IMG/VR virus record: IMGVR_UViG_3300029998_000013
Location: 114,321-178,320 of that record
Direction: 5' to 3' (one strand)
Length of the DNA: 64,000 bases
From: a virus
Shown: piece after piece, positions 24,101 to 58,697 of the stretch
How positions within the stretch are numbered: position 1 is the first letter of the stretch
Layout of the letters: the number at the start of each line of letters is the position of its first letter
Translations under genes and position numbers: made by a program
Notes under the pieces: model-generated
Seen by the model: the letters and a program-made list of their open reading frames with translations, nothing else
Database searches by the model: none
Told to the model about the DNA's origin: nothing

Positions 24101-27100
24101 CAGAGTTTTCATCCCAACCTAACATAGTTAAGTTACGACCAACACTATCAGTTAAACAGAATGTAAAACAACATAAAACATAATCAATACAATTTCTTAA
24201 ATCAAAGAATTTTTCAAATGTTAAACTATCAGCAAAAGCTTCATCAGTTGCATTTGCCATCCAATAAATTGCATTCAAAAAGTCAGTATGTTGTTGTGTA
24301 GCAAATATTGCCTTATTTTTATTAATTCTATAAAAAGTTGATCCAGGATTAGTTAATGAAGGAAGTGTTGGACTATACGTTTCAGTTCTTTCGGACTCAT
24401 TTGCTAAAAGTGAAGTATAGTAATCAACTACTTGATTTCCCGATCTATCAGCTTTTCCTGTCGTTTCTAATTTATCTCAAACTCAACGTAATGTTTTTGT
24501 AGAATTAGGAGCATTTAAATCAAGTTCATGAGGATTAATTAAATTATAAGTTCTTGTTCAAACTCCATTTAAATATTCTTCTCAATGTCCAATTCCAAAA
24601 TCACCCGGATCTCTACATTCTCAGTCCATTACTAATTCAGCACCTTGTCTTCAAGCTAATTCTTGAGCATCATTTGTCTTATTTCAATAGTCTACTCCTT
24701 GTTGCCAAATGTGTTTTTCAGCATTATAAATTATTCCTACATGAGATTTATTAGTTGGGGAAGTTCCTAAATTCGAACCTTGATCATCAGTTGCATATCT
24801 GATTAAAGTATATGTCCCATGAGAATTTGAAATACCTTCAGAAATACTAATAGAAGATCATGTATAATCATGATAATCAGTTGATTTAATATTAGTTGTT
24901 TTATCAACAGCTATGCCAATATATAAGTTACCAATAGGACTATTTTCGAATTGTGTATTAGTTTTCGAAACAGAGTATACAACTCATGTATATTTTCCAT
25001 TTGATTGTAGTAAACCTTCTGATGAATTAATTGGAAATCAAGTATAATCAGATGCTACTTTATTTTCAAAGAGTTCATTATTTTGAGCTGTTTCAATATA
25101 TGATGTTGATAAAACTCTTCCATAATAATCAACTAATAACTGTTCAGAACGCATATCAAGAAATTTACAATAACCAGATCTTAATTCTTCATGAACAGAG
25201 TCACCATTAGATTCAGAACGATAAATATAATATCTTCTATTAGGATCACTCTTTTCACTAGGCATTGAATATAACTTTCTATGCTGCTTTAAATTCCAAG
25301 TATATAATCCGGTAAATCGTTTTGAGTATCAAGTTTGATCAATTTTATAATCTCCATTCATAATAAATGGAAATCCATCAACAGCTAATCTTAATGGATA
25401 TACTGGATATCTACTTAAGTTATCAACTACTGTATCAGGACGTGTTACTGTATAATTTATAAAAGGATTAGCTCTACCAAACACAGGAGTGAATTGTTCT
25501 GCACCTTCTGAATTTTCTCAGTTAAATGGATATCTAAAGACTTGTTCTGATAATTTTGCTATAATTAGATTATTACAATGTGAACTATCAATATAGTTTG
25601 CTTTTAAATGATAAGAATCCCAATCTGGTCATGGTCTAACAATAGGATCTCCATTATTATAAACCATATTATAAAATTTTGGTGTTTTAGTTTGAGTTAG
25701 ATCTCAAGCTTGACCATCAAAAATATCAATACCATAATTCTTAATAGGATAAGATAATGATGAATTACCTTGTAAGTCAACATCAACTGGAAAAGGCATA
25801 ACCATAGTTTGATAAGCTCCATCAAATTCTCCTATAGCTTGAGGATCAGGGATATAAGTATCAGCAATGTTTTCTTCGTTACCAGGATTAAAACTTAATT
25901 CTAGTTGAGTCATAATATCTTTTTGTATAGCACTTCGATCACCCTCCATATAACCAGAGGAAAGAATTGGGGTAGCTACACTATTAAGTTCTTCTAATAA
26001 TGCCCGTCCCCCATCTTCAGGATAACATGCAATATAATTAGCTAAAATGTCATCAGTTGTTAAACAAGTCTTATAAACTCTTAAAAATCTAATTTTTGTT
26101 TCAGCAATTCCTACAACTTCTCCTAATAAATTTTTATAACCATTAATATAAATATGTTCGTCAGCTTGAGTTAAGAATAATTCTTGATCAACAAATGTTC
26201 CAAATGATGAAATAACACCATTTAAATAAACATATACTTCTTTAGTATCTATATTAAAAGTAATAACAACATGAGCATATTCTTGACCTTCAACTCATTC
26301 TCCATTCTTAGTAAGTACTCTACTATCACAGATAATAGGAACACTAATATTTGTTGATAATCCATTAATTCTTAACTCATTTGCAGTTACATAAATACCT
26401 ACAGATGGAGTAATTTCTGGTCTACCAATACTTAATTGATAAACCCCTTCTCCAACTAAAGCACCCTCTCTAATTGAGAATTCAATAGTTAAACCAGTTG
26501 TATTATTTTCAAATCCTGCAAGTGGTGCATAATTAACTTCAACATAAGCTGAACCATTCATTGAAAGATCATCACCTAAATGTTGATTTGCTCCAGTAAT
26601 TTCTCAACCATTTAATTCAGTATTAAATCCGTTAAGAACTGCATAATTATCTGGTAAATTTAATGTATATTTATTTTCTCATAATCCTCAATTTGGAGAA
26701 TTATTAGTTTTACCTTTAGCATTTAGATATAATTCTAATTTAGATATTGGTGTTTCTAATACAATATAAGAAGATTTTTGTTGTAATGATAGATTTAATA
26801 AATTAGTATTAGCCCAATAGGTTTCATTTTCAGGTAACTCTAATAGCTCTGACGTGTATCTTATTGAGATACTATTTCCACTATCAGGTAGTAATAATAC
26901 TACTTCATTACCTTTTTGTGAAAGACTTGGTGCAGAAATATAATAAGGACTAACTCTTAATCCATTAATTTCTAACCATGCTTTAGATTGATAAGTATAT
27001 TGGCCAATATATTCTGAATTTTCATCATAATAAATGTTTACGGGAAGTACAATAGTATCTCCAACATAATATGATAAATTAGTATTAAAATCTGTAGAAG

Positions 27101-46921: not shown

Positions 46922-47017
46922 TGGCACGGGTATCAGGACTCGAACCCGAATAATGAAGTTTGGACCTCCACGTGTGGTTTTGAAGACCACTTCTATTCCC
47001 AATAGGAAAGTACCCGC
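46922..47017 (-). tRNA. tRNA with UCA anticodon and long variable arm, probable opal (TGA) decoder
   Basis: The 96-nt minus-strand fold has a 7-bp acceptor (47011-47017 with 46926-46932), discriminator G, encoded CCA (46922-46924), T-arm with TTCGAGT loop and 5-bp stem, and a perfect 5-bp anticodon stem (46986-46990 with 46974-46978) around CTTCAAA. Anticodon is TCA (46981-46983), which reads UGA. A 24-nt variable region forms a 5-bp arm, making it class II (as tRNA-Ser, -Leu, -Sec), not the class I form of tRNA-Trp. The D-arm can pair in more than one way. It lies 7 nt after the 70-aa gene, on the strand of the recoded genes. Confidence 0.85.
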
Positions 47018-57818: not shown

Positions 57819-57888
57819 GATCTACATACCTCTAACGAGGATGATGAATGCACACTATTGCCCGCGTAATCGTATCCGTGGGCACCTT

Positions 57889-57985
57889 TTGACAGTAGCT
57901 CAGCTTGGTTAGAGTGCAACATGGACAAAATCCTTGAGGAGTTTGGTCTATGTTGAGGTCACAGGTTCAAATCCTGTCTGTCAAT
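57889..57985 (+). tRNA. tRNA-like element with 29-nt anticodon loop
   Basis: 7-bp perfect acceptor (57889-57895 with 57978-57984), D-arm GCTC/GAGT, 5-bp anticodon stem CAACA/TGTTG (57917-57921, 57951-57955), 5-nt variable loop, and a T-arm ACAGG-TTCAAAT-CCTGT (57961-57977) are canonical. The anticodon loop is 29 nt instead of 7. It folds into a continuation of the stem capped by TTGA. No CCA is encoded. It is either a tRNA with a short intron-like insertion or a non-decoding tRNA mimic. Confidence 0.6.
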
Positions 57986-58627
57986 CAATATTATAACAAT
58001 TACTACCAGTTCCATGGCGGACCGAAGGATGCTATCTGGTAGGGTAACTCTTGCACGTACGGGGCAAGGGAGTCAGATTATTGTTATTGTTTTCTTTAGC
58101 GTGCTGCTAGCTTCACTAGGCTCAGTAGACAATAGAGAGAGCATAAATCCCCGACGCAGCTTTTAGGGACTTATTGCGCTAGCTGCTATGACAACCACTC
58201 CAGGTTGAAGTGCGTGAAACTCGTAACTTACAAATCTATGGCATTCTAAACCATGAGGATTTGTAATCCGTAACAAGCCCTGCCCACATGATGGGATTTG
58301 CGCAAGAGTCGGACCTATAAAGCAAAGTAGATACAACTTGAAGAGAGCCTATGAATTCCTTCTCTTGAGGGTGAAAAGGTGGAAATATTATCATAACCTA
58401 GGAAGTGTGGTACTAAAGTAAATGTAATCTAATGTGTCAATTCATACCTGCATTAGTGCATTTGTTTTTGCTTTTAACTATTAGAAAGGACGTGATCATC
58501 GTCGTATCCCTAAGCAAGGAGAAAAACTGCAGTTACAGGTTGGGCGTCTTTAGATTATATCTAAGGAAGTCCTCATAGAAGTCAGCGATGCGCAAGCTAG
58601 CTGTGCCCAGTAACAAAAAAATTCTGG

Positions 58628-58697
58628 TTGGGGTGTCGTCTAGTGGTTAGGACGGGCATCGCGAGCTAAACATGGGTTCGAATCCCAGCTCCTCCTC
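58628..58697 (+). tRNA. Degenerate tRNA-like element
   Basis: D-arm GTC-TAGTGGTTA-GGAC and T-arm TGGG-TTCGAAT-CCCA are typical of tRNA-Glu/Gln types. The acceptor pairs poorly (about 5 of 7), and no 5-bp anticodon stem exists in GGGCATCGCGAGCTAAAC. An alternative GAGCT/AGCTC pairing encloses the T-arm. Probably not a working tRNA. Confidence 0.4.

Follow-up and report, generated by a model that had tools for sequence, protein, structure and literature searches.

What can a tRNA fold do in a phage when a hairpin takes the place of its anticodon loop? The question is raised by a tRNA-like gene at positions 57,889–57,985 (+ strand) of a 64,000-nt stretch of phage DNA, here called the window, which forms the final 64 kb of a 178,320-base IMG/VR record (G000). 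To our knowledge, the presence of tRNAs in phages is nearly always attributed either to codon usage or to resistance against anticodon nucleases.

The body of the element is that of a canonical tRNA. The acceptor stem (TTGACAG/CTGTCAA) pairs in 7/7 positions and the T arm (ACAGG-TTCAAAT-CCTGT) in 5/5, so the broken acceptor or T stem by which a tRNA pseudogene is recognised was not found. The D stem (GCTC/GAGT) contains one G-U wobble, the bases T8, A9 and G26 are present, and the segment AGGTC forms the variable loop between the anticodon domain and the T arm. The canonical acceptor, D and T arms proposed in an earlier, sequence-only reading of this DNA were thus recovered. All 32 drawn pairs are standard. 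The Rfam tRNA model (RF00005) gave 49.5 bits, compared with a gathering threshold of 29, and ARAGORN called a tRNA with the meaningless anticodon 'aca'; both results, like the sequence itself, confirm a tRNA fold in which a hairpin replaces the anticodon loop. The minimum free energy of the whole element was −32.7, with a z-score of −3.3 against dinucleotide shuffles. At the 3′ border, U73 is followed by CAA at 57,986–57,988. This border is of the same type as in the ordinary tRNAs of the phage, in which base 73 is followed by C in 25/25 cases and by CAA in 14/25. Two further IMG/VR contigs carry the locus with 100% identity across 11–12.8 kb, which makes an assembly slip unlikely. These identical contigs add no comparative information, and the locus is known as one distinct sequence; a search with the flanking genes returned the identical population only and no diverged orthologue. 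We also considered that the element is what remains of a tRNA and is retained at the DNA level, for instance as a site of integration or recombination, since tRNA genes are common attachment sites. Such sites keep one host-identical half of a tRNA, whereas the two halves of the element pair perfectly with each other and enclose a foreign loop, and we regard this explanation as extremely improbable. An attachment-site remnant would not give a whole tRNA and was rejected.

The hairpin occupies positions 57,917–57,955 (+). The anticodon stem CAACA/TGTTG encloses an insert of 29 nt that continues the stem and ends in a TTGA cap, as had been noted earlier, whereas the length of about 17 bp given at that time had to be corrected to 16 bp, interrupted by a single bulge and a single mismatch. 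The helix consists of 10 contiguous base pairs, CAACAUGGAC/GUCUAUGUUG (one of them G-U), followed by a bulged G, AAA/UUU, an A·G mismatch, UCC/GGA and the UUGA cap. The predicted folding energy was −15.4 kcal/mol. When the insert was shuffled, an equally stable hairpin was obtained in 0.3% of trials, and a stem continued by at least 5 bp in 1.3%. The 7-nt anticodon loop with U33 that marks a decoding tRNA is replaced by the 29-nt hairpin and G33. Moreover, any excision of 22 nt that would leave a 7-nt loop places G at position 33, never U, which means that by the usual rule the RNA is non-decoding, spliced or unspliced. This supports the earlier statement that the fold cannot decode as such. 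No bulge-helix-bulge was found in this copy, and a group I or group II intron was rejected because the insert is far too short.

The remainder of the phage genome supplies a decoding apparatus of its own. Terminase and portal matches were found in the record, and late open reading frames of 4311, 3313 and 3054 codons are open only when UGA is read through; the largest contains 41 UGA and 10 UGG codons. In early genes, UGA is mostly not read as sense. The genome is therefore clearly split into an early region that uses the standard code and a late region, located at window positions 1–42,500 (−) and at 71–155 kb of G000, with UGA as sense. The recoding of UGA in late genes is a known trait of crAss-like phages (PMC7886860). 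Judged by the terminase and portal matches, the giant late reading frames and the code split, the phage is probably crAss-like. A cluster of 25 tRNAs at 19.8–33.6 kb (G000) covers all 20 amino acids, and thus the element at 57,889–57,985 is not needed for decoding. A UGA-readthrough gene running across the element was also rejected, as the table-4 frames at this position are not gene-like. Outside this question, a tRNA with UCA anticodon and a long variable arm was found at 46,922–47,017 (−) of the window; it was called tRNA-Sec by ARAGORN and is probably a UGA suppressor. Its anticodon arm is almost the same as the one in a CCA-anticodon class II tRNA of the array (G000: 25,326–25,409), itself an odd gene because tRNA-Trp is normally class I. 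The array also holds a tRNA with CUA anticodon (G000:C1:24197-24270; L012 8198-8272), and UAG readthrough is hardly apparent in the phage.

The element stands apart from the tRNA cluster, in a gene-free kilobase bordered by a small lipoprotein-like reading frame and a run of small reading frames. Just 5′ of the tRNA fold, the sequence and window folds revealed a GC-rich hairpin, GCCCGCG...CGTGGGC (57,860–57,883, +), a putative leader or terminator-like structure that separates the element from the upstream reading frame. On the 3′ side lies a stretch of 643 nt (57,986–58,628, +) in which the ORF scan found no convincing gene, the longest ATG/GTG/TTG frames being about 50 amino acids, and which matched no Rfam family. 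Its GC content is 42%, compared with 31% for the window; the upstream genes also have 42%. The hairpin tRNA stands at the start of this stretch, and a second, weaker tRNA-like element (58,629–58,696, +) at its end. The latter was scored by the Rfam tRNA model at 24.8 bits, below gathering, and has tRNA-Glu-like D and T arms, a shortened anticodon arm, a poor acceptor stem and the U73-CAA border. It is possible that the 643 nt are a non-coding RNA bounded by two tRNA folds. A large structured RNA between the folds was rejected: the stretch is not unusually structured overall, its window z-scores were ordinary, and the searches yielded no relative. GOLLD, ROOL, tmRNA and Y RNA gave no Rfam match in the window.

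These surroundings bear on a further explanation, namely that the element is a functionless former decoding tRNA with a Met/Ile-like body, left in a degrading tRNA island after a quasi-palindromic insertion into its loop. The tRNA-like sequence 640 bp downstream is clearly degenerate, which makes decay more possible for this copy, and the stretch between the two folds is without a convincing gene. In addition, across 19 nt the body of the element is similar to other tRNAs of the same phage, and no orthologue shows conservation. However, pairing is complete in the acceptor, T and anticodon stems, the hairpin surpasses 99.7% of shuffled inserts, and acceptor pairing persists throughout the class of phage genes described below. 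Decay is an unlikely account of the element.

This class was collected from IMG/VR with a search pattern in which the letters of the D and T loops were fixed and a long gap separated the two loops. The strict form of the pattern yielded three further sequences. From the looser form came at least 116 distinct phage tRNAs in which the anticodon domain is enlarged, with hairpins as well as a pseudoknot family; the counts from the pattern searches are lower bounds and not frequencies, and IMG/VR includes some non-viral contigs. Such patterns demand intact D and T loops and are thus biased towards well-kept or young copies, so recently altered tRNAs are favoured and young pseudogenes could look intact. 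A perfect 7-bp acceptor, which the pattern does not require, was present in 98 of 122 among the matches listed. The 5-bp anticodon stem was kept in 37 of the 116 distinct sequences among the matches listed, compared with 0.9% expected by chance. The hairpins of different phages have no common sequence. Among the side observations from phage sequences is a tRNA with an extra arm between the D and anticodon arms (L015 5560-5655). Another is a tRNA-Ile(UAU) whose variable arm is unusual and long, with conserved CTGATAAG and a covarying stem; this tRNA is common to phages (L077, L082, L116) and Actinomyces genomes (L145, L170, L176, L214).

The enlarged anticodon domains allowed us to assess the earlier suggestion of a tiny anticodon-loop intron, cut out and ligated to give a working tRNA. 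A like pattern, restricted to longer gaps, was run as a control on genomes of 84,980 species and found mainly archaeal intron-bearing tRNAs. In the control tRNAs with a 5-bp stem (n = 77), U33 was present in 74 and A38 in 73. In contrast, among the matches listed, the 37 phage cases with an intact stem had U33 in 12 and A38 in 16, and 25 were without U33. The scarcity of U33 indicates that the phage set consists mostly of tRNAs other than intron-bearing decoders. The case in favour of an intron comes from seven Aeromonas T4-like genomes (PX29, AsFcp2, avDM12-TAAL, Ah1, Aeh1, AsFcp4 and phiWae14), in which gene 57B is followed by an otherwise normal tRNA that carries, after the anticodon, a 25–28-nt hairpin inserted as CTTCT^...^AA; in most of these genomes the tRNA precedes tRNA-Leu. 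In phiAS5 the orthologue is an ordinary tRNA-Arg(UCU) with the loop CTTCTAA, and Ahp1_CNU-2021 carries another variant, whose hairpin and flanks differ in sequence. The insert tRNAs show compensating changes in the arms and the hairpin, and their acceptor helix (L261-L268, L373) is extended by about 8–11 covarying base pairs into the flanks. In the PX29 record the insert tRNA is annotated as a joined tRNA, and three further loci (L118, L121, L127) resemble this architecture. The 57B product is labelled RNA ligase in several records; its position beside the insert tRNA is suggestive and may be due to chance. As the arrangement of these genes stands, the Aeromonas insert may be a true mini-intron. 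The Aeromonas inserts pass the excision test; the window element does not, since it has G at position 33 after every excision and no bulge-helix-bulge. For this copy the intron suggestion is unsupported, and we consider it very unlikely.

In a sub-family of at least 11 phage tRNA-like loci (L025, L039, L042, L061, L078, L119, L367, L369-L372), the anticodon arm is replaced by a pseudoknot. Its second stem covaries (AAAGG/CCTTT, AATGGA/TCCATT, AAACGAT/ATCGTTT, AAAGACT/AGTCTTT and AAGCGGT/ACCGCTT), and no Rfam family beyond tRNA was matched. Covariation in a displayed structure speaks for the view that the tRNA body is a nuclease-resistant scaffold or decoy and the hairpin the active part, binding an RNA or a host protein such as a defence RNase. 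The long hairpin of the window element, continuous with its anticodon stem, would be such a display, like an engineered tRNA scaffold, and most phage genes of this kind are lone, outside tRNA arrays. Against this, the hairpin sequences differ between phages, there is no known partner, and forms without an anticodon arm display nothing. We rate this role for the hairpin as rather unlikely.

The armless forms were found close to the window phage itself. Its crAss-like relatives (TerL 60–68% identical) contain armless tRNA folds of 56 and 59 nt, squeezed between codirectional genes, and one such relative has a tRNA fold with an 18-nt anticodon loop. The IMG/VR search for armless forms gave at least 105 distinct sequences, with at least 94 armless tRNAs from phages. 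Among the matches listed, the acceptor paired in 7/7 positions in 73/105 and in at least 6/7 in 95/105, and the T stem in 5/5 in 99/105; the acceptor sequences themselves were diverse. The armless pattern was found 0 times in 297 Bacteroidota genomes, each of which has ordinary tRNAs bearing the same arms; this indicates that the class is virus-enriched, at least in comparison with the phylum to which the host of the window phage presumably belongs. The region of one armless family, 'GCGCCAT', was absent from the E. coli genomes and annotated phages searched. Together, enlarged and armless forms amount to at least two hundred tRNAs without a reading head in phage sequences. In the part of the open literature covered by our search, we found no account of armless tRNAs in phages, and the class as a whole seems to be undescribed there.

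The positions of the armless forms point to a possible role. In a Streptococcus prophage (L433, 6773-7223), an armless tRNA-Phe begins 3 nt past a full-length GOLLD RNA. In related Streptococcus phages (L496-L500), the same slot is taken by tRNA-Phe(GAA), tRNA-Ser(GCU), a tRNA with UUA anticodon or scrambled tRNA sequence. The position is kept and the decoding identity is not, so it is the tRNA fold that seems to be wanted there. Other armless tRNAs lie directly behind Pseudomonadales-1 and abiF RNAs. Together with the gene junctions of the crAss-like relatives, these positions favour a role in processing or punctuation through RNase P and RNase Z. Placement behind a non-coding RNA is clear for GOLLD in another phage only; the window copy has no known non-coding RNA in front, and its 3′ side is not a tight gene junction.

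RNase P and RNase Z recognise the acceptor-T half of a tRNA. The most likely reading of the window element, to which we assign a probability of roughly 0.45, is a non-decoding tRNA module seen by these two enzymes and used to cut or cap phage transcripts. The fold, the missing decodable loop, the recurrence of such genes in phages and their places at gene junctions and immediately after phage non-coding RNAs are observed; recognition by RNase P and RNase Z, and processing as the selected function, are what we infer. Transcripts running through the locus would fold into the tRNA elbow and acceptor stem. Host RNase P would then cut on the 5′ side, and RNase Z or exonucleases on the 3′ side, perhaps with CCA addition. 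Such cutting would part the upstream mRNA from the downstream non-coding stretch and leave a stable tRNA-like RNA, and the 643-nt stretch between the folds at 57,889–57,985 and 58,629–58,696 would be released by the same processing. Since the RNA need not decode, its anticodon domain can turn into a hairpin or a pseudoknot, or be deleted. With the full tRNA set of the phage and the wide spread of non-decoding tRNA folds in phage contigs, the mimic and scaffold options of the sequence-only reading are the ones that fit best.

For the class, we tentatively propose, at a little under even odds, that phages of many lineages keep 'anticodon-free tRNAs'. Their selected acceptor, T and D arms would form a module for maturation and protection with a free anticodon slot, which may be deleted or hold a hairpin, a covarying pseudoknot or a removable mini-intron. 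The module would end or separate RNAs such as GOLLD and perhaps display anti-defence decoys. Virus-enriched tRNA genes unable to decode imply that the tRNA shape serves a further purpose in phages. The module reading predicts an RNase P cut at the 5′ end of non-decoding tRNAs and offers a mechanism for the 3′ ends of GOLLD-type phage RNAs. It follows that 'undetermined' tRNAs in phage annotations are not simply to be discarded as pseudogenes.

Several known systems share features with the element. Irregular allo-tRNA polycistrons from soil data contain irregular tRNA-like genes that failed translation tests (Mukai et al., reviewed in PMC7609411); unlike the window element, they retain an anticodon and have 12-bp acceptor domains. 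The GOLLD and ROOL RNAs of phages have neighbouring or embedded tRNAs (PMC12286853), and the likeness lies in a phage non-coding RNA beside a tRNA fold. However, tRNAs and tRNA islands are described there, not non-decoding ones, and neither RNA is in the window. As in tmRNA, the acceptor/T half of a tRNA is kept and the anticodon domain replaced, but the element is without a tag ORF, has a normal D arm, and pair 3-70 is G-C and not G-U; a tmRNA was rejected, with no ARAGORN call, no Rfam match and no tag reading frame. The bacterial Y RNA YrlA likewise joins a tRNA mimic to a long hairpin. Y RNA, a circularly permuted molecule that binds Ro60, was rejected as well, as there was no Rfam match and the TROVE (Ro60) protein is absent from the window phage. 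In the case of MALAT1, a nuclear lncRNA of animals, RNase P cuts at a tRNA-like module, mascRNA, and thereby generates the 3′ end of the preceding RNA. The phage elements are of unrelated origin, their cleavage is predicted, and the anticodon arm is enlarged in the window element and reduced in mascRNA. Nevertheless, the window element, like mascRNA, is a tRNA fold without decoding competence and with a non-decoding anticodon arm, and the armless tRNA 3 nt behind GOLLD compares with mascRNA in its placement.
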